The notes under the pieces are model-generated. The model worked only from the letters and a program-made list of their open reading frames with translations. It had not been told where the DNA came from and ran no database searches. The translations under genes were made by a program, and so were the position numbers. Below, one piece after another: positions 10,239 to 64,000 of a stretch of 64,000 nucleotides of DNA (its first letter is position 1; the number at the start of each line of letters is the position of its first letter). The DNA comes from Antedon mediterranea (lineage: Eukaryota; Echinodermata; Crinoidea; Comatulida; Antedonidae). The stretch lies in assembly GCF_964355755.1 (NCBI RefSeq), contig NC_092671.1, positions 13,434,501-13,498,500 on the forward strand. The letters run 5' to 3'.

Positions 10239-10276
10239 ATGACGACAAATTCTAATAAAGTACATATTGAATACTG
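10239..10276 (+). CDS. SELENOW2: Selenoprotein exon 1
   Basis: ATG in context GAAAATGA, 12 codons plus TG of the first redox Cys codon, then donor GTAAGT. The protein start MTTNSNKVHIEY lacks the long N-terminal tail of human MIEN1. Confidence 0.88.
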
Positions 10277-11842
10277 GTAAGTTTGTTTTTTAACATGAAG
10301 CTCCCAATAAATCGTCAAAACAAGACGGTGGCATTTGCTTTTAATATTAGGGCTAGGCTCTAGCCTAGGCTAGCTCTCTTAGTTAGTTAGGCTAGCCTAG
10401 GCCTAGTCTCTAGAGGAACTAGCTTGGCTATTATTTAAAATATATAGGCCTGGCTAGGCCTATCTATAAATACTAGGCTAAACTACTATCTAACTTCTAG
10501 TGGCCTGCTAAATAATTTATAAAAGGTTTATGAATAATGATTGACGGGACCACGGATAATCGAGCTCACAAAGGTCAGGCCCAGAAAATACGGTTCCGAT
10601 CATCTTAGTTCTTACTTATGTGTTGGGCCTGATTCAATTCTCTCAAGTGTTTGTAACGGATCTTTGTAACCATATTGGTCCCGATCATCCTAATCATTGC
10701 GGACAATTGTCTTAGCACAGGGCCCGATCATCTCTATAATATGCCATATGGTGAGACACATAAAATCGTTTATTTATTTTGGTCCCAAAATCATCAACAT
10801 CCGGTATAAACTATATATTCTGTATTATATATGGAGCGCTATTATTATCAGGCTATTTTGAATGTGCTACTAGATAAAGTTAAAGTATTGGCTAAATACT
10901 GTAAATTTTATTTTGTAACTCCTGTTGCAAAAAGTGTCTTTGAATACTATACAGAAATACTAATAATCTTGTTATACTTATAGTGGTGCATGAGGGTACG
11001 AGAACCGCTTCCTGGAGCTGCAAAGTCACATACAGTCTGCAGTACCGGAAGTAGAGGTCTCTGGAAGTGTTGGTCGCAGTCGTAAGTAATCTAATACTCT
11101 TTTCACGGTCTGCAAAACAAGTTTGTTTGTATAGTGTGAAGAAAATTTTGAGAAAAACAAACCAATAAGAGGCCTGTTTTTTTTGTTTCAAGATGTTACT
11201 ATGCGCATGTGTATTGCCCTGGTATTAAGTGACCAATCGTAGTAATCAAATAACAAGAAACTATGTGTTGTTTTGCATATGCGTATATGAAAACGTCTAA
11301 CAAATATGTAACAAGTTGTAACAATGTATGCAGATGTGAAAAGGGTATTAAATATAAGCGTTTTTATTTTGATAGCATAAGCATCCCATAACATACTGAT
11401 ACAGTATATGCCTATTATTTGTTTAATGTTTTCAGATCATTGTTTTCAATTTGATAACTGCATAATTAAGAAAAATCACAAATTCAAAATTCATAATTTT
11501 TTGGGAATGGCTCTATTTACATATTTTATATAAAATATCTTTTTTTCAGAATCATTTGAAGTAACCTTAAATAATCAAACACTGTTTTCCAAGTTAGAGT
11601 CTGGAGGATTTCCAAATACTGATCAGGTAGAATACACTGTACATCATTTTTGCATACATATAATATATACATATTTATAATTCATATTTTAATCACACAA
11701 TAGCAATATCTAGCAATGTTTGTTTTATTATTGAAATAAATATTTGTATCTTTCATAGATTGTGAAGCAAATTGTTGATTATGATGGTGGGGGCGTTCAA
11801 CAAGTAACAGATATTTCCTTCCCAGGATGCAATATTTTATAA
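10239..11842 (+). CDS. SELENOW2: MIEN1/SELENOW2-type selenoprotein (Sec at codon 16)
   Basis: A small thioredoxin-fold redox protein of the Rdx family, 98 residues if TGA at 10991-10993 is read as selenocysteine. Exons are 10239-10276, 10984-11081, 11550-11626 and 11759-11842, phases consistent. Residues 11-18 read EYCGAUGY, the redox motif C-x-x-U after beta strand 1; FSKLESGGFP at 58-67 is the signature shared with MIEN1 (Rdx12/C35). The last four residues, CNIL, form a CaaX box ending in Leu, predicting geranylgeranylation and membrane attachment, as for CVIL in human MIEN1. Human MIEN1 has Cys in place of U; fish SelW2 has Sec. The SECIS in the 3' UTR supports recoding; with TGA as stop only 15 residues would be made and three conserved exons would be left unexplained. 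The symbol is by family; MIEN1 is equally fitting by orthology. Confidence 0.92.
10984..11081 (+). CDS. SELENOW2: Selenoprotein exon 2 with in-frame TGA (Sec)
   Basis: The acceptor is ACTTATAG and the donor GTAAGT. T completes Cys13; GGT GCA TGA gives Gly-Ala-Sec; the frame then stays open through GYENRFLELQSHIQ to the donor. Confidence 0.9.
11550..11626 (+). CDS. SELENOW2: Selenoprotein exon 3
   Basis: Acceptor TTTTTTCAG, donor GTAGAA. It encodes SFEVTLNNQTLFSKLESGGF, the central strand pair and GGFP turn typical of MIEN1/SelW proteins. Confidence 0.9.
11759..11842 (+). CDS. SELENOW2: Selenoprotein exon 4 with stop and CaaX box
   Basis: Acceptor TTTCATAG. It encodes IVKQIVDYDGGGVQQVTD and ends FPGCNIL-TAA. 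The Cys four residues from the end forms the prenylation box. Confidence 0.88.
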   Translation: MVKQIVDYDGGGVQQVTDISFPGCNIL

Positions 11843-12188
11843 AATACTATGTTAGGGTAAAGATGATTAAATAATATTGTTGGTTATTGCACTGAACAGT
11901 TTCTATTTGTGATAATGTATGCAAGTGTACAGTATTGTATTACAACAGTTTCAGTATTGTATTCTCAAATAGTGCTTTAACTGAATGCCAGTTTTCAATA
12001 TAATTATGCAGACGAATATGAATATTTCATGGTCAAATTAATAGAATCCCAATTATGGGGACATATTTAGAACCCAATAATAAGTCCCCTTAATAGGCCT
12101 GTCCTCTGAAAGTGAGGATCTACTGTAATTGGTATAGAAAACTAATAACAGCTTCAAATATAATGTTTACCAATAATTTTCTTTCCTC

Positions 12189-12250
12189 TAAGGCTCTGTC
12201 TACACTATTAAACTAGATGTGACAACAAAAAATGTGATGTGCCCATATGG
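12189..12250 (+). mobile_element. Terminal fragment of the AAGCTCTGTCTACACTAT family in the selenoprotein 3' UTR
   Basis: AAGGCTCTGTCTACACTATT followed by AAACTAG and, later, AATGTGATGTGCC matches the left end of the fold-back element at 32380. No right end is recognisable here. Confidence 0.6.
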
Positions 12251-12261
12251 ACATTATGTTA

Positions 12262-12345
12262 TATCACTACCATATTAAGGCATATAACTACCATATTTAA
12301 GTATATAACTACCATATTTAAGTATATACTGTAACTACCATATTT
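12262..12345 (+). repeat. Short tandem repeat, ATATAACTACCATATTTAAG type
   Basis: About four imperfect copies of a 20-base unit built on ACTACCATATT and AAGTATATA, inside the 3' UTR between the stop codon and the SECIS. Confidence 0.7.
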
Positions 12346-12489
12346 GTTTAGTTTACTAGTTTGATAATGAAAACAGAGCTTAAGAAATACCGGATTCTGA
12401 TGCTTATCTTTCAATATTATGTACAATTTACGTTGTGCTACCCTCCCACCTGTATACTAGGAATGGCAGATCATTTGGTACACAAATTA

Positions 12490-12557
12490 CTTGTAGCGAA
12501 TGATAGCTCACATATAAAGGATGTTTCCATGTGCAAGCTGGATGATTAGCCTACAAG
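12490..12557 (+). promoter_or_regulatory. SECIS element (form 2) of the selenoprotein mRNA
   Basis: The element recruits SBP2 and the Sec-specific elongation factor to decode UGA. Visible parts in order: basal helix CTTGTAG (12490-12496) with CTACAAG (12551-12557), both perfect; the SECIS core ATGA at 12500-12503 opposite TGAT at 12543-12546; upper helix AGCT-CACAT (12505-12513) with ATGTG-CA-AGCT (12529-12539, CA bulged); unpaired AAA at 12516-12518; mini-stem GGA/TCC closing a TGTT loop (12519-12528), which makes it form 2. It is about 650 bases after the stop codon, on the coding strand, before the poly(A) signal. Confidence 0.9.
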
Positions 12558-12605
12558 CTGTTTGTGTATGAAATGTACATAATTCTGTAACATTCAAAAG
12601 TTAAA

Positions 12606-12611
12606 AATAAA
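12606..12611 (+). terminator. Polyadenylation signal AATAAA of the selenoprotein gene
   Basis: AATAAA in an A/T-rich context some 50 bases after the SECIS, followed by T-rich DNA. Another AATAAA-like word overlaps a few bases on. Confidence 0.6.
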
Positions 12612-13010
12612 TAATAAATTATTAAATATTTATACATTGTCTATATTTTTATTATTGTATTTTAAGAATTGTATTGTAGTTCATGATATTGACAATTTTT
12701 ATATTGACAGTATTTATATAATTTTTAGTTGTGTTTTAAGCAAAATAAAAAACATCTCAATATTCTGTTGCTGATTTCAGTGTACCCTCTCCAATCCTGT
12801 CATGGTTTCTATTTGAAATTTATAAAATATGTCTGTTAATTTTGTCATCCATTTATCACCCAATAAGCTGTGGTGGTCGAAATTAAGTATATATCATGTA
12901 ATATTTAACGTTTACCAGAAAGAGTGAGAATGAACTTTTTCAATTAATTAGTCTTGCCAAGTTATTAAGTTATTCTTATATTGTTTGAAGATTTGCATGG
13001 CGAAATCAAA

Positions 13011-13132
13011 TGTTGGTATAAATTTTGCGGTACACCACATGTATTAGTTCTGCTTTGATCGAAACGTCGAGAAACTCAACAGTTCTTTTCAGAACTAATA
13101 CATGTAGTGTACCGCAAAATTCATATCAACAT
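13011..13132. repeat. Inverted repeat with 42-base arms and a 37-base loop
   Basis: Arms 13011-13052 and 13090-13132 share TTTTGCGGTACAC and ATGTATTAGTTCTG as reverse complements with about three mismatches. The loop holds GATCGAAACGTCGAGAAACT. It may be a solo MITE or a fragment of a larger element. Confidence 0.75.
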
Positions 13133-31600: not shown

Positions 31601-34600
31601 AATGAATTTATTTATAATAGCAGCACAGATTTCCAAAAACAAAAAAATTAGAGGGTGGGATTACAGTATTAATGGATTTGTGTTCAAATTTAGTCTAAAT
31701 TCAGAACAAAATGATTCTTTTTTTTTAAATGATGTTTTACATCATACTTTAGAATAGTTAAATCGAAAAAAGTAGCAGACTTTAAAAATGCTCAACATGC
31801 TCAATCTCTATACTGTACAATTAAAGTTTCAATATTTGTGCTTTTTTGTTAATTAATATCGATCATTTAGTCAAGTAATTAAAGATAATTCAAGCAATTT
31901 GTTTACTACACTACCTTATTATTTAATATCTAATATTATATAACACCTAAATAAATTCCTGACATTTGATTGGACGATTGTGGGTCACATGGCGTGCAAT
32001 AGTACGCACTATTAAACGATCGTTTAATATTACTTTTTGAAACATTTTTGTGTACGAAAAAAAAAATGTCTCGCGGATAAAAAAAAATCTAGTACACAAA
32101 TTATCCTATGATATGGCCATGTACCATTACACTCATAAACATTCATTATTTGTATACTAATAGACAATCTAACACTATAATTTCAATATCTTACTAAGTG
32201 TGAAATAGTTAATTACGGTACTTACACAGGTGTAATTAGGTCAAAAGTTAACAGAAATTTTAAAAATCTAAGTTTAATAATAATATTGAGTTTGTTACAA
32301 AACTCTAATAATTTTGACATTTAAAAACCATTCATATTCAGACTGTAGAGATGAAATGCAAATGAAAGCAACCTTTGTCTTAAGCTCTGTCTACACTATC
32401 AAACTAGTTTGACAAAGAAAGTGTGATGTGCCGAAATATGGTAGTGTATGGAAAGCCAAACCCGCCAAAAATACATAATACATACCATCCACCAATAATT
32501 AATTCGTACAAAATTCAAACCATCCAATATTATCTCATGCAGTTCAATGAAAACTTAAACCATTCACCTAGTATCTACACCATCCAATACAATGTGTGAC
32601 CATCTACCACTAGCCCAAACGACAGTACGCCGAACAAACTACCCATAACACAAACCATCTAAAGAATGTTGAGCCCAGGCAGCAATAATTGAATTAATCT
32701 AACGTTAATACAAGTATATATTAGCCAACTCATTTATCAACATTTCATGTAGTTCATGAACATTTCAAACAAAGCATCTTAATTATAGTTCATCGAATTC
32801 TAATTCTAATACATTGCCTGTTTTATACCCCGTTCGTCTGTTCAACAGTTTAAACAACTGTTTTGCACACGATACGCCCGTTCGTGAGTTCAAACCATGA
32901 TATTTGAAGCATCGACTTTCCAAACAGCGATTTTTCGCACCGAACGTATTTTCTTGAGTTAAAGTGGTTGCATTTCAATCACTTACTTTTGATTGGCCAG
33001 TATTACACACCGTTCGCTTGTTCGTGATTTCAAACCATGATATTTGAAGCATCGACTTTCCAAACGGCGATTTTTCGCACCGAACGTATTTTCTTGAGTT
33101 AAAGTGGTTGCATTTCAATCACCTACTTTCGATTGGCCAGTATTACACACCGTTCGCTTGTTCGTGATTTCATGTGATAACATTTCATTCGACAACTTTT
33201 CAAACGTTAGCTTTTGGCTCCGCTTACGTATATATCAATTGATATACTATTTTTTAATTTTCATACTTTCCATACATCAGTTTTGTACATCATTCGCATT
33301 TACGCATGTAAAGTGTAGATATTCCACTCGACAAGTTTTAAAACGGTAGTTTTTTTTTTATTGTTAAATTGTAACTGTTGGCGCCGATTTTATATTGGGG
33401 GGGGGGGGGGAGGTGTTCGGTACTGAATGTGAACAGTACACATTTTTAAATATGGTATCTCTACATGTCCGGAAATTACACTCTCTCAAAAAAAGGGGTT
33501 TTTTTTCCGTAGTGTGTAATATTAAATCAACCACAACCACAACCGTAAGATGAGAACATTTTAGGAACAATGGACATGTTAATTGTAACAGGCCCACAAG
33601 CTAAATTATATTATTTCATTCTGTTTTTTTTTTCATTATTTAAGTTTGTGATAATGTGTGTAACCAGGGAGATGTAAAATAAATTTATAAATTAGTTTAC
33701 ATCTCCCTGTGTGTGTAACGTAGGCCTAGGCCTAAGTAATTAAGTGTCATACAGTCGTAAAGTTGACATTCACCCCCCCGCCCCTCAATATTAAATCGGC
33801 GCCAACAGTTACAATTTAACAATAAAACAATAAATGTGCGAACAACTACCGTTTAAAACTTGTCGAGTGGAATATCTACACTTTACATGCGTAAATGCGA
33901 ATGATGTACAAAACTGACTATGGAAAGTATGAAAATTAAAAAATAGTATATCAACTGACATATACGTAAGCAGAGCCAAAAACTAACATTTGAAAAGTTG
34001 TCGAATGAAATGTTATCACATGAAATCACGAACAAGCGAACGGTGTGTAATACTGGCCAATCGAAAGTAGGTGATTGAAATGCAACACTTTAACTCAAGA
34101 AAATACGTTCGGTGCGAAAAATCGCCGTTTGGAAAGTCGATGCTTCAAATATCATGGTTTGAACACGAACAAGCGAACGGTGTGTAATACTGGCCAATCG
34201 AAAGTAAGTGATTGAAATGCAACCACTTTAACTCAAGAAAATACGTTCGGTGCGAAAAATCGCCATTTGGAAAGTCGATGCTTCAAATATCATGGTTTGA
34301 ACTCACGAACGGGCGTATCGTGTGCAAAACAGTTGTTTAAACTGTTGAACAGACGAACGGTGTATAAAACAGGCAATGTATTAGAATTAGAATTCAATGA
34401 ACTATAATTAAGATGCTTTGTTTGAAATGTTCATGAACTACATGAAATGTTGATAAATGAGTTGGCTAATATATACTTGTATTAACGTTAGATTAATTCA
34501 ATTATTGCTGCCTGGGCTCAACATTCTTTAGATGGTTTGTGTTATGGGTAGTTTGTTCGGCGTATTGTCGTTTGGGCTAGTGGTAGATGGTCACACATTG

Positions 34601-58500: not shown

Positions 58501-61500
58501 AGGTTTTAGTATTTGTTTTCAATCATTATTATGGGCTTGTAAAAAAGTGTTTTTTTATCTACTAACTTTAGTTTAAGTGTATTTAGAGGTCATTTCATGT
58601 AGAGGTCCAGATATCTGCAGTACGTAGATAAATTTGTGAATATCAATTGGCTGATAATATAAAGTCCATTAGCTTTTAGAAGACCTCTCAGTATCATTAA
58701 CATGCACACTTGGTACTTATCATGCAAGAAACTGTCTGGTTTAAGTGGTTTACTTAGAAGCTATCCATTGCGTTGTTGCGGTGATTATGATTGTGTCCAT
58801 GAATTATGTCAACGACTTTCCTAATAAATTTTGTGATGATTAGCGCTTTTTACCATTGAAATAGTTAAATTTAATATGTTCTTCATAACCATTTTATTAT
58901 TATTTCCATATTTGAGGTAATATCCAACGAGTACAGAACTTGTTAAATCGAACATTTTTGTTTTTTACCAAATTTTATAATTGGTCATAGCTTCTGAAAT
59001 TAATATTTTGTGGTTGAGCTAGTATGTGTTGCCATGTTTTATCATTGGTTAAGCTAGTTGGTGTGGCCATGTTTTATCATTGGTTGAGCTAGTATGTGTT
59101 GCCATGTTTTATCATTGGTTAAGCTAGTTGGTGTGGCCATGTTTTATCATTGGTTGAGCTGGTAGGTGTGGCCATGTTTTATCATTGGTTAAGCTAGTTG
59201 GTGTTGCCATGTTTTATCATTGGTTGAGCTGGTAGGTGTGGCCATGTTTTATCATTGGTTAAGCTAGTAGGTGTGGCCATGTTTTATTCTTGGTTGAGCT
59301 AGTGGGGGTGTGGCCATGTTTTATTCTTGGTTGAGCTGGTAGGTGTGGCCATGTTTTATCATTGGTTAAGCTAGTTGGTGTGGCCATTTTTTATCATTGG
59401 TTGAGCTGGTAGGTGTGGCCATGTTTTTTATCATTGGTTAAGCTAGTTGGTGTGGCCATGTTTTATCATTGGTTAAGCTAGTTGGTGTGGCCATGTTTTA
59501 TCATTGGTTAAGCTAGTTGGTGTGGCCATGTTTTATCATTGGTTGAGCTGGTAGGTGTGGCCATGTTTTATCATTGGTTAATCTAGTTGGTGTGGCCATG
59601 TTTTATCATTGGTTGAGCTGGTAGGTGTGGCCATGTTTTATCATTGGTTAAGCTAGTAGGTGTGGCCATGTTTTATTCTTGGTTGAGCTAGTGGGGGTGT
59701 GGCCATGTTTTATTCTTGGTTGAGCTGGTAGGTGTGGCCATGTTTTATCATTGTTTAAGCTAGTTGGTGTGGCCATGTTTTATCATTGGTTGAGCTGGTA
59801 GGTGTGGCCATGTTTTATCATTGGTTAAGCTAGTTGGTGTGGCCATGTTTTATCATTGGTTGAGCTGGTGGGTATGGCCATGTTTTATCATTGGTTGAGC
59901 TGGTAGGTGTGGCCATGTTTTATCATTGGTTAAGCTAGTTGGTGTGGCCATGTTTTATCATTGGTTAAGCTTGTGGGTATGGCCATGTTTTATCATTGGT
60001 TGAGCTAGTAGGTGTGGCCATGTTTTATCATTGGTTAAGCTAGTTGGTGTGGCCATGTTTTATCATTGGTTGAGCTGGTGGGTATGGCCATGTTTTATCA
60101 TTGGTTAAGCTAGTTGGTGTGGCCATGTTTTATCATTGGTTGAGCTGGTGGGTATGGCCATGTTTTATCATTGGTTGAGCTAGTAGGTGTGGCCATGTTT
60201 TATTCTTGGTTAACTTGTGGGGGTGTGGCCATGTTTTATCATTGGTTAAGCTAGTTGGTGTGGCCATGTTTTATCATTGGTTGAGCTGGTAGGTTTGCTA
60301 GGCTCGCGCTAACCGCTCGCCAATTCGCCAATGGCGACTGGAGTCTCCATTTGGCGAAAATAATTATTGCCTCGTTCGCCAAATTGGCGAAAATACATTT
60401 CCAAGCCTAGGCCTAGCCTGGTCGGCGTGACTTCTTATGGGAGCGAGAATTCGCCACACTTCGGTACTTTCTGACTCGGGTACACTTTTTACCACAACAG
60501 CATTTTATGTGACGACGTCACGATCGCCGTGTTCATTTTTTTAGTTCTGTTTAAACATGCGCAGAGCGTGCCTCGATGACGTTTTAATGACACACAGTTA
60601 ATGTGATTGGTTCGTGGCCGGTCGTCGTCGACGTGATGATGAGCGAATAAAAGGGGAAGTCCCTATTCTTCGACGTAGAAAATGAACTTCGAGAAGAAAA
60701 TGTAAACAGAAACATGTGGACGAATACTTCCGTAAACGAGGCTGTTCTGTTATTTAAAAAGGGGAATTTTAAATTTAACAAAGTAATTACCTCAATAGTA
60801 TAATGTTAACATGTTTAATTTTATTTCCCTTTCGATTATTCTAACCGAAAGTTGCGCTTTAAATTGAATAGCTAAGAAACAACGTATACTACAACGGCAA
60901 CCCTGGCCAAAGCGCGTTTCGGCCGCCTTCATAGAATGGGTTACGGCCGCTGCATAGCAAATTCAAAGCTTCTTAAATTTCTGTGGTACATTTCTTCCTA
61001 ACGTACTTGTTTTATATAATAGATTGATAAATATTCCACTTATTAAATAATTTAATAAATCGGTAAAATTGACGTTTCGAAGCAAGTATTCCATGATGAG
61101 AGGCGACATTTTTCGACATGCCTCGTGTGCGGTGAATACTAGTTCAGAAAATGGAACAGTCCACTGTGCGGGGGTTATCCAATCATTAATTAACGCGCTA
61201 ATACCTAGGCGACGGTAATTTAGTAATAAGCGGAGAACTGAATCCCCCGTAAGGAAAATGGTAAACACTGATATTTATGGTAGGGATTATTTTTTTCAGT
61301 GGTTGGTCTTGTTGGCTTCTTCGCACCAGGTCCACGCAAAGTCAAATAAAACGATGTGGTTTATCAAACAGAAATATAAATTAGCTTTAATTCATTACTA
61401 AATTAGCCAGATTTTGATAATGAGAAAGGCTAAAAAATTGTTATCGTTAAAATTGACATATGAGGCGGATGTACATAATAATAATAACCGATTTACATAT

Positions 61501-64000
61501 CAAAATAAAGAGTATTTAAAGCCTGATAACATGCAACAAAAATTACTCCACCACCTATTATGGACCTCGTGCGATCGGGTGCGAAAATGGGTAGGTGTTT
61601 TCCGAAGTTATTTTTAGCGCGCAGATTTCGTCTCGCCGGCTTTTGTACCTCATTTTTAACTCGTGTTTTCTATTAAAATATTTAATAAACATAGATTAAA
61701 AATATATAAAAATAATCCCTTAAACAAGATCTTTCCAGGCATATAATTTTTATTCTCATGGGTACATAAGAAATAGTATATTTTTAACTTCAAAGACACG
61801 TCACTTTTTGAAATTTCACGAACGTGTTAAAATCGCGGTAACGAAAACCAGCTTCATTGGGATAAATAATAATAATATAAATGTAAAAGAAGTAAAATAA
61901 CAAACAAATACATGCATTATTTATTTAATAAACATTTTTGCGAATTTTTATGGTTTTTTAAATTTGGCTAAAGGATTTTCAATTTGGCTAATGTTTTTCA
62001 AAACCTTTCGCCATTTTGGCGAACGAAAATTTGACCTTAGCGCGAGCGTAGGGTTTGGCCATGTTTTATCATTGGTTAAGCTAGTTGGTGTGGCCATGTT
62101 TTATCATTGGTGGAGCTGGTAGGTGTGGCCATGTTTTATCATTGGTTAAGCTGGTTGGTGTGGCCATGTTTTATCATTGGTTGAGCTGGTGGGTATGGCC
62201 ATGTTTTATCATTGGTTGAGCTAGTAGGTGTGGCCATGTTTTATTCTTGGTTAACTTGTGGGGGTGTGGCCATGTTTTATTCTTGGTTGAGCTAGTGGGT
62301 GTGGCCATGTTTTATTCTTGGTTGAGCTAGTGAGTGTGGCCATTTATTTAGCCATTTTGTGCCTAATTTTTGAACTTGTAATTTATAATGTCTGTTAGTG
62401 TAGTTTAAAATTCAGACCATGTTTACAATCTCAACATATCTCAAGCAAACCGGTTTATAAATGATGTTTTTAATCATTGACTAGATCAACATGTCTGCTA
62501 TTCAGAAACCAGTTGACATTATTCGTATAATATTAATGTATAACAGTCATTTATACTATTGTGCAAGGTATTGTATTTTCGGTGATTTCAGCCAGAGTTT
62601 TGTTGTTTTGTTTGAAATAAATTAGTTCTTCAATATATAAACAATAAAATAACAAACTGTATATTAATTTTGTTTTTCAGTTTATTGTTATCCTACTTGT
62701 CAAAATATTGACAGGAACAATGAAAGAGATGGAAGACATCAGAGAAGATAACGATGGTGCGACAGCTGTTGGAAAACCTGTAACAAACGGCACAAGTACA
62801 GAGTACAGCACCAATGGGTAAATGTCTATAATTGTCATGCTATTATATTGCCATACTAGCTTTAATTTTTAAAAAAGCAAAAAAACATGCTAAATAATAG
62901 TGCTCTGTTTGAATAAGTACACTACCACCTCCTCCCCATCGTCGTACACTACCTCCTCCCCTCGTCATACACTACCTCCTCTTCTTGTCGTACACTACCT
63001 CCTCCCCTTGTCGTACACTACCTCCTCCCCTTGTCGTACACTTCCTCCTCCCCTTGTCGTACACTACCTCCTCCCTCTTGTCGTACACTACCTCCTCCCT
63101 CTTGTCGTACACTTCCTCCTCCCCTTGTCGTACACTTCCTCCTCCCCTTGTCGTACACTACCTCCTCCCCTTGTCATGCACTACCTCCTCCCCTTGTCGT
63201 ACATTACCTCCTCCCCTTGTCATACACTACCTCCTCCATTTGTCGTACACTACCTCCTCCCCTTGTCGTACACTACCTCCTCTCCTTGTCATGCACTACC
63301 TCCTCCCCTTGTCGTACACTACCTCCTCCATTTGTCGTACATTACCTCCTCCCCTTGTCATACACTACCTCCTCCATTTGTCGTACACTACCTCCTCCCC
63401 TTGTCGTACACTACCTCCTCCCCTTGTCGTACATTACCTCCTCCCCTTGTCATGCACTTCCTCCTCCCCTTGTCGTACACTTCCTCCTCCCTTTGTCGTA
63501 CACTACCTCCTCCCCTTGTCGTACACTTCCTCCTCCCCTTGTCGTACACTTCCTCCTCCCCTTGTCGTACACTTCCTCCTCCCCTTGTCGTACACTACCT
63601 CCTCCCCTTGTCGTACACTACTTCCTCCCCTTGTCGTACACTACCTCCTCCCCTTGTCGTACACTACCTCCTCCCCTTGTCGTACACTACCTCCTCCCCT
63701 TGTCGTACACTACCTCCTCCCCTTGTCGTACACTACCTCCTCCCCTTGTCGTGCACTACCTCCTCTCCTTGTCGTGCATTACCTCCTCCATTTGTCGTAC
63801 ACTACCTCCTCCCTTGCAACAATTAAGAACAATCCCATTCAGGCCCTCATTCCAAAACCAGTAGAAACAGGCCTTACAGTTTACATTATTGTTCATTTAT
63901 GCATAATATAAAACGAGTTGCTAATCATAATTTTAATTGTTTCACTTATTTCTTTTTCAGAATTGCAAATGGCAACGGTGTGAAGAGGAGGCAGGTTGGA
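43283..64000 (+). CDS. CERS1: Ceramide synthase, CERS1 class, 3' end outside the window
   Basis: A multi-pass ER enzyme that joins a fatty acyl-CoA to a sphingoid base to make (dihydro)ceramide. Seven exons: 43283-43507, 50337-50496, 54432-54612, 54880-55044, 56685-56838, 62681-62817 and 63961 to the edge; phases agree, 354 codons so far. AAKFPESAWRFTFYTFSWS (about 88-106) matches the CERS1 block AAKMPESAWKFLFYLGSWS. The Lag1/TLC motif is intact: HH at 174-175 in LCIHHVLTLIL and HDxxD at 201-205 in LCHDFNDIFLE. RMYWYPFKVL and MDVYWFV follow, then an acidic cytosolic tail (MKEMEDIREDNDG). There is no Hox-like domain between the first two membrane segments, as in vertebrate CERS1 and unlike CERS2-6. 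Introns are large and full of repeats. A few tail residues and the stop are missing. Confidence 0.92.
44879..44908. repeat. Perfect 30-bp palindrome
   Basis: Two exact 15-base halves around CCATGG (half-site CTGACATATGCCCCA). No spacer. No related copy was seen elsewhere in the window. Confidence 0.9.
45589..47520. repeat. Composite interspersed repeat, copy 2, interrupted
   Basis: Same order of blocks as copy 1 at 1441-2332, about 90% alike by eye, with the tRNA-like segment at 46139-46212. A 1064-bp element has inserted after 46266. The left hairpin is degraded: one arm is largely deleted. Confidence 0.75.
46267..47330. mobile_element. 1064-bp fold-back element nested in the composite repeat
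   Basis: Ends are GACCCCATTTACACTTCA and the reverse complement of GACCTCATTTACACTTCA. ATA flanks both ends (46264-46266 and 47331-47333), and removing the element restores the sequence seen in copy 1, so the 3-bp duplication is well supported. Subterminal GCCGGC-rich motifs and TGTAAACAC words are mirrored. An inner inverted repeat pairs 46555-46651 with 46853-46949 (CAAACAATGCCGTGCAACAA). No transposase is seen. A 3-bp duplication is typical of PIF/Harbinger, but the family is not proven. Confidence 0.85.
47580..47891. mobile_element. 312-bp TTAA-flanked MITE
   Basis: Left tip TTAACACATTGACTGCCA, right tip the reverse complement of TTAACACGTTCACTGCCA. TTAA at both outer ends suggests a piggyBac-type target site. 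No reading frame. Confidence 0.75.
48306..49903. mobile_element. 1.6-kb TTAA-flanked element with AGATGTATTGTC ends
   Basis: TTAA plus AGATGTATTGTCTC at left (48306) and GGGACAATACATCT plus TTAA at right (to 49903). Inside, TGGACCTGAAATGGA (48440) and its reverse TCCATTTCAGGTCCA (49458) show an inner inverted repeat. Several short open frames have no recognised transposase. A solo end of this family lies at 3583-3600. Confidence 0.75.
50337..50496 (+). CDS. CERS1: CERS1 exon 2
   Basis: Acceptor ATTTTTTTAG, donor GTACGT. It encodes KFPESAWRFTFYTFSWSFTA, the most diagnostic CERS1 block, then a membrane segment. Confidence 0.92.
51614..52434. mobile_element. 821-bp DNA transposon derivative with ATACCGTATTT repeats
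   Basis: Ends GGCCCTGTTTCTGCTGC and, reversed, GGGCCTGTTTCTGCTGC, each flanked by AAT (51611-51613, 52435-52437), a likely 3-bp target duplication. Just inside both ends are many AATACCGTATT/AATACGGTATT words in both orientations. The centre holds a decayed Myb/SANT-like frame. Together these suggest a non-autonomous PIF/Harbinger relative. Confidence 0.8.
52000..52293 (+). pseudogene. Remnant of a transposon Myb/SANT-like DNA-binding protein
   Basis: The frame starts MSGQLKVIKGTTAFIKTFLK. It contains IDLSPKQVNSKLKS, like the third helix of Myb/SANT-like domains, and later NSGRKQITCPHYD, like the conserved G-RKTCP-Y/F-E motif that follows those domains in Harbinger-type elements. The first helices and the rest are missing or altered, so it is a fragment of a transposon accessory gene, not a host gene. 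The call is by motif memory and moderate only. Confidence 0.5.
52938..53240 (+). mobile_element. tRNA-derived SINE
   Basis: GTCGAGTGGCCAAGCAGTTA resembles the 5' part of tRNA-Ser/Leu with an A box; a weak B box (GGTTGTAGTATTC) follows at about 53000. Then comes a ~220-base GC-richer body with no open reading frame of note. Ends are approximate and no target duplication was identified. Confidence 0.6.
54432..54612 (+). CDS. CERS1: CERS1 exon 3
   Basis: Acceptor TAATTTCAG, donor GTAAGT. It encodes YAVQGSFYLHSMFATIFLDV and the catalytic His pair in LCIHHVLTLILITFSYTV. Confidence 0.93.
54880..55044 (+). CDS. CERS1: CERS1 exon 4
   Basis: Acceptor TTATTTCAG, donor GTAAGT. It encodes LVLLCHDFNDIFLELAKCC with the HDxxD half of the Lag1 motif. 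Confidence 0.93.
56685..56838 (+). CDS. CERS1: CERS1 exon 5
   Basis: Acceptor TTTTGCAG, donor GTAAGG. Joined to the TG left by exon 4 it reads WCVTRMYWYPFKVLLTIQPS and ends MLMDVYWFV. Confidence 0.93.
59010..60297 (+). repeat. 35-bp minisatellite, left block (~37 copies)
   Basis: Units read GGTTAAGCTAGTTGGTGTGG then CCATGTTTTATCATT, with a second common variant GGTTGAGCTGGTAGGTGTGG. The two types partly alternate. A TATTCTTGG/GTGGGGGTG variant pair recurs near 59303 and 59691, about 388 bases apart, showing a higher-order duplication of some 11 units. Confidence 0.95.
60298..62051. mobile_element. 1754-bp transposon inserted in the minisatellite, 6-bp TSD
   Basis: GGTTTG is duplicated at 60292-60297 and 62052-62057; removing one copy plus the insert rebuilds an intact repeat unit. 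Ends are inverted: CTAGGCTCGCGCTAA and, reversed, CTACGCTCGCGCTAA. Subterminal words TTGGCGAAAA / TTCGCCAAATT recur at both ends. Short frames (65-101 codons) inside show no known transposase. It is locally richer in CpG than the host intron. Superfamily uncertain; non-autonomous as far as seen. Confidence 0.88.
62052..62345 (+). repeat. 35-bp minisatellite, right block (~8 copies)
   Basis: Continuation of the array after the insertion. It carries the same rare TTAACTTGTGGGGGTG unit (near 62242) found just before the insertion (near 60207), so this end was duplicated within the array. Confidence 0.93.
62681..62817 (+). CDS. CERS1: CERS1 exon 6
   Basis: Acceptor TTTTTCAG, donor GTAAAT. It completes the last membrane segment (FIVILLVKILTG) and starts the acidic tail. 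Confidence 0.9.
62917..63816 (+). repeat. 23-bp pyrimidine-rich minisatellite (~39 copies)
   Basis: The unit contains CACTACCTCCTCCCCTTG followed by TCGTA. Variants are CATTTG for CCCTTG, TTCC for TACC and TGCA for TACA. It fills most of CERS1 intron 6, ending about 145 bases before exon 7. Because 23 is not a multiple of 3, the same 23-residue peptide pattern is open in all three forward frames for some 280-308 codons; this is a by-product of the repeat, not a gene. Confidence 0.95.
63961..64000 (+). CDS. CERS1: CERS1 exon 7, cut by window edge
   Basis: Acceptor TTTCTTTTTCAG at 63949-63960. In phase it reads IANGNGVKRRQVG, a basic tail stretch, to the last base of the window. Confidence 0.8.

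Follow-up and report, generated by a model that had tools for sequence, protein, structure and literature searches.

The window analyzed here, that is, the whole 64-kb stretch of DNA (positions 13434501-13498500 of contig C2 in a 354-Mb assembly of 18 contigs), contains with a probability of about 0.9 a functional selenoprotein gene of the SelW2/MIEN1 type. In this gene, UGA at 10991 would be decoded as selenocysteine (Sec) by tRNA-Sec, eEFSec and a SECIS element in the 3' UTR. The product would be a 98-residue protein of the Rdx family with a thioredoxin fold and a CxxU redox site, and its C-terminal CNIL is probably geranylgeranylated by GGTase-I. The gene structure, the homology, the SECIS element and a part of the Sec machinery are established at the level of sequence.

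Four exons on the + strand, located at 10239-11842 and separated by GT-AG introns, join to 297 bases encoding 98 residues. The coding part of the gene has the following features:

10239..10276, + strand: coding exon 1, which begins with the ATG at 10239 and runs into the Cys codon of CxxU, holding its first two bases; gtaagt after; translation MTTNSNKVHIEY
10984..11081, + strand: coding exon 2, which carries the Sec codon; ag before, gtaagt after; the match of the window protein crosses the TGA
10991..10993, + strand: TGA, the predicted selenocysteine codon (C-G-A-U); a phmmer alignment to 2ljk places it at the last Cys of the MIEN1 motif CEPC
11550..11626, + strand: coding exon 3 (FSKLESGGFP); cag before, gtagaa after; match to the Rdx profile
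11759..11842, + strand: coding exon 4 with the TAA stop; tag before; match of the window protein
11828..11839, + strand: codons of the CaaX-like tail CNIL, the last four residues ahead of TAA, in the same place as human MIEN1 CVIL

The spliced product reads MTTNSNKVHIEYCGA-U-GYENRF...FSKLESGGFP...PGCNIL. Its frame is interrupted by a single TGA at 10991-10993, in the context Y-C-G-A-(TGA)-G-Y, and ends with TAA at 11840-11842 directly after CNIL. Three elements of the preliminary description are borne out: the four exons, whose splice sites are canonical, with an in-frame C-G-A-TGA, the signature FSKLESGGFP in exon 3, and CNIL at the C-terminus. Seven other stretches of the window were compared with Pfam, and none scored above the cut-off.

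Several repeats were observed elsewhere in the window. A long inverted repeat at 13017-13125, just beyond the gene, has a sub-cut-off match to mir-4798 on both strands and is perhaps a small mobile-element hairpin. A 35-base minisatellite forms two arrays, apparently of one unit, at 59011-60294 (36.5 copies) and 62051-62343 (8.3 copies), and a 23-base minisatellite with 38.4 copies, in which three + strand frames are open, occupies 62927-63813. Two pairs of 138-140-base tandem units, at 32880-33206 and 34027-34302, are apparently mutual reverse complements.

The encoded protein belongs to the Rdx family by two profiles: PF10262 of Pfam (residues 7-77, E-value 2.3e-20, 73.0 bits against a cut-off of 22.6) and TIGR02174, CXXU_selWTH, of NCBIfam (4.9e-19, 68.4 bits against a cut-off of 34.2). 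Its closest match in PDB is human MIEN1, also known as Rdx12 or C17orf37 (2ljk; residues 7-97, 3.5e-16, 62.5 bits), followed by mouse SelW (6.1e-5, 26.5 bits) and then by bacterial SelW-like proteins. The two proteins share the signature FSKLE.GGFP and the C-terminal C-x-I-L in addition to family membership; MIEN1 differs in a longer N-terminus and in having Cys in place of Sec. The latter difference, stated in the preliminary description, is seen in the alignment of the CxxU motif near the N-terminus, where C-G-A-TGA stands opposite C-E-P-C and the TGA takes the place of the latter Cys in CxxC of MIEN1. Identity over aligned columns is 35% to MIEN1 and 24-29% to three SelW1 sequences. In a tree of eight short sequences, the SelW1 group is split off (support 84/87), and the window gene and MIEN1 remain outside it with their own fork open.

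The same genome encodes two SelW1 genes, arranged in tandem on the minus strand at C10:18017500-18027400, each with C-G-G-TGA-G-Y-G and a SECIS element of its own. Their protein models are 85% identical, and the helix II and apical letters of their SECIS elements are the same. Copy A, whose model was assembled by eye (MPIAVKVLYCGGUGYGPRYQKL...AALK), matches mouse SelW at 3.2e-23 (84.8 bits) and MIEN1 at 6.5e-6 (29.6 bits). Selenoprotein W1, represented by the mouse protein (2npb) and by this pair, shares the Rdx family and the Sec site with the window gene; it is a weaker match to the window gene than MIEN1, and neither own copy has a CaaX box, the C-terminus being DAALK in both. Because the SelW1 genes of the same genome differ from the window gene in these respects, copy A being nearest to SelW, the window gene most likely represents the other branch, SelW2/MIEN1.

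The 3' flank of the gene carries two more features:

12490..12557, + strand: SECIS element of form 2; core ATGA 12500-12503 / GGAT 12540-12543, AAA 12516-12518, mini-stem GGA/TCC 12519-12528
12606..12618, + strand: two AATAAA poly(A) signals (12606 and 12613), found in a motif scan of 11843-13000, just 3' of the SECIS

In the same motif scan, AATAAA was absent between the stop codon and the SECIS, and ATTAAA occurred there twice, at 11866 and 12207. In the spliced message, the UGA and the SECIS core are 906 bases apart, assuming that the 3' UTR is free of introns. In the element at 12490-12557, the AAA and the mini-stem were found as described earlier, and two other parts of that description need correction. 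The basal stem, called perfect, is indeed unbroken for 7 bp (12490-12496 with 12551-12557); beyond them a 2x2 loop precedes further pairs, and helix II is in two parts. The core had been given as ATGA/TGAT. Its 5' half holds, but the partner in register, in both the Rfam alignment and our scan, is GGAT, as TGAT (12543-12546) lies three bases out of register.

The Rfam model SECIS_1 matches 12490-12557 from end to end with 23.4 bits (E-value 0.014 for a search space of 191 bases), short of the gathering score of 35 bits, and it is absent from the cmscan lists for 8 kb at E<=1 and for the whole window at E<=10. The SECIS elements of the two SelW1 genes score 24.0 bits (E-value 0.49 each in 9.9 kb), likewise under the gathering score; thus, 23.4 bits is similar to the scores of the two other elements seen here. 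The folding energy of 12470-12575 is -37.3 kcal/mol (z -5.03), and none of 200 shuffled sequences was equally stable.

We also scanned for SECIS elements by pattern. The strict version of the scan caught the window site and missed both SelW1 elements, and the rules were loosened once. The looser scan finds one site on the two strands of the window; in the 9.9-kb locus of the SelW1 genes it finds two, in the same positions as Rfam. Seven sites were found in 30 random 64-kb strands, none of them as good as 12490-12557. Random single strand generated with the dinucleotide frequencies of the window, 96 Mb in total, yields 396 passing sites, 16 of which equal the window site in energy and basal stem. 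The chance expectation is about 0.5 sites of any kind and 0.02 equally good ones for the two strands of the window, and 0.003 and 0.0001, respectively, for the 778 bases at 11843-12620; the rules were tuned with the known targets in view, and these figures are rough.

The genome encodes two tRNA-Sec genes with anticodon TCA (C10:7998743-7998828 and C1:4969541-4969626), SepSecS, and the eukaryotic SelB/eEFSec domain, the latter with one match above the cut-off and two weaker adjoining ones. Our assessment of the Sec machinery covers these three components. Decoding of the UGA is further supported by the sister SelW1 genes, which use TGA at the same site and have their own SECIS elements. As a separate observation, weak sub-cut-off matches to the tRNA-Sec model cluster at C10:14.38-14.39 Mb and C11:0.83-0.85 Mb; these are perhaps other long-arm tRNA arrays.

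Some sequences elsewhere in the genome bear on the kind of animal. For two of the 21 tektin matches listed, the encoded exons were compared with PDB, and in both cases a sea urchin chain (8snb) ranked first, at 174.7 bits versus 136.2 and 198.5 bits versus 136.7 for mammalian chains; an ambulacrarian deuterostome is therefore likely. A SALMFamide pattern matched the genome three times, never within a series of repeated amidated peptides in the frames inspected; these matches are attributed to chance and do not point to echinoderms in particular. COX1 was not found in the assembly.

Two readings of the locus compete with a selenoprotein of the SelW2/MIEN1 type. The presence of one in-frame stop codon would be expected if the TGA were a true stop and the locus a decaying copy of a Cys-type MIEN1 gene. 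Yet this sole stop sits exactly at the redox residue, the splice sites and the remaining frame are intact, a SECIS element lies downstream, and the genome search with the window protein recovers a single copy; a broken gene is thus highly improbable, the least probable of the readings considered. Marginally less remote, and still very improbable, is the possibility that the gene is an ordinary selenoprotein W, SelW1. Membership in the Rdx family is compatible with it, the small tree does not firmly unite the window gene with MIEN1, and in the window gene and both SelW1 genes alike an intron splits the codon of the first active-site Cys behind its TG, a position that may be taken as a sign of shared origin of the three. 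However, MIEN1 leads the PDB matches by 36 bits, the signature FSKLESGGFP and the CaaX-like tail are as in MIEN1, and the genome has the two separate SelW1 genes on C10 described above, of which copy A matches SelW best. The earlier claim of a MIEN1-type protein that keeps Sec and combines a CaaX-like tail with a complete SECIS is upheld by the ranking of PDB matches, the position of the TGA, the tail and the SECIS.

The third alternative accepts the SelW2/MIEN1-type selenoprotein and concerns its tail, which reads PGCNIL compared with PPCVIL in human MIEN1. If CNIL were not prenylated, the Sec would be genuine, the protein would be soluble, as is SelW1, and the resemblance of its tail to that of MIEN1 would have no function. 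Leu in the X position suits GGTase-I, as in CLVL of RhoA and CLLL of Rac1. PMC6738349 tabulates both of these tails and reports, for human MIEN1, prenylation of CVIL by GGTase-I and membrane attachment. Of a GGTase-I CaaX box with aliphatic a1 and a2 and Leu at X, CNIL has the Cys, Ile and Leu, and its a1 is Asn, outside the aliphatic set given in that paper. The non-aliphatic a1 thus favors a soluble protein; Cys, Ile and Leu, which match the end positions of CVIL despite an overall identity of only 35%, and the suitability of Leu speak against it. We regard a soluble product as unlikely, if clearly more plausible than the two readings above. With CNIL geranylgeranylated, which remains the preferred reading, the lipid tail would keep the selenoprotein at the inner face of the membrane, by analogy with human MIEN1, for which a thioredoxin-like fold and redox activity are reported (PMC3527542). 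Taken as a whole, the points against the preferred interpretation are the SECIS_1 score below gathering and its absence from the wider scans, Asn at a1 of CNIL, the 35% identity to MIEN1, the open fork in the tree, and the location of PGAP3 on another contig.

The last of these points comes from a search for PGAP3, a neighbor of MIEN1 in human 17q12. No PGAP3 match was found on C2, the contig of the window; five Per1/PGAP3 matches above the cut-off are on C1 and one weak match is on C10. This neighborhood is not a true defining feature across such an evolutionary distance. Further copies of the gene were also sought. A genome search with the window protein, with Cys placed at the Sec site, returned three matches, all within the window locus, and no Cys-type MIEN1 copy. 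The genome search for the Rdx family returned one match, exon 3 of the window gene, and missed both SelW1 genes, which surfaced just as weak matches to mouse SelW (E-values 0.029 and 0.059). Because the Rdx search overlooked these two real genes, the reach of the searches is limited, and another copy may have escaped them.

The evolutionary setting is provided by earlier studies. SelW2 is described as a selenoprotein of bony fish, frog and elephant shark (PMC3316567), in agreement with the preliminary description, which mentioned Sec forms in fish. A SelW2 is also listed for Ciona, where the number may merely denote a second SelW (PMC2874816), and SelW2 is named in flatworms and Trichoplax (PMC3828610). 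Given these listings, invertebrate SelW2 genes of the Sec type are already a known kind. What the window gene shares with these proteins is membership in the Sec-containing branch of the SelW family nearest to MIEN1/Rdx12; this likeness is taken from the published descriptions (PMC3316567, PMC2874816, PMC3828610), which in the passages concerned do not mention a CaaX box. Two further sources, on SelW gene counts in invertebrates (PMC3473315) and on MIEN1 in three species (PMC10878790), do not, in the parts considered, settle the age of the CaaX box. In the open-licence PMC literature we found no paper pairing SelW2 with CAAX and none with phrases such as 'prenylated selenoprotein'; four papers in which selenocysteine, CAAX and SECIS all occur are, judging from their titles, on other topics. 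The coexistence of Sec and a CaaX-like tail outside vertebrates seems to be less noted.

The preliminary description considered Sec to be ancestral and Cys to have replaced it later in the vertebrate line. The window gene fits this order of events, which had already been proposed in PMC3316567 in a different form: according to the passages considered, Rdx12 (MIEN1) is a Cys-containing duplicate of SelW2 that arose before the amphibian split, and frog retains both genes. The Sec-to-Cys change is therefore placed after a duplication, rather than being a simple replacement at one gene; one genome alone cannot date it. Since Sec and a CaaX-like tail occur together outside vertebrates, the anchor signal may be older than the Sec-to-Cys change. 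A broader scenario is that, in deuterostomes other than vertebrates, SelW2 is a membrane-bound selenoenzyme with a prenyl anchor, that Sec and the anchor are both ancestral to MIEN1, and that the vertebrate line kept the anchor and exchanged Sec for Cys after the duplication; we consider the odds of this scenario to be even.

In summary, the window gene connects MIEN1, a Cys protein linked to cancer, with a Sec form whose membrane tail is seemingly the same. Simple swaps would thereby make it possible to test how replacing Sec by Cys affects a redox adaptor at the membrane.
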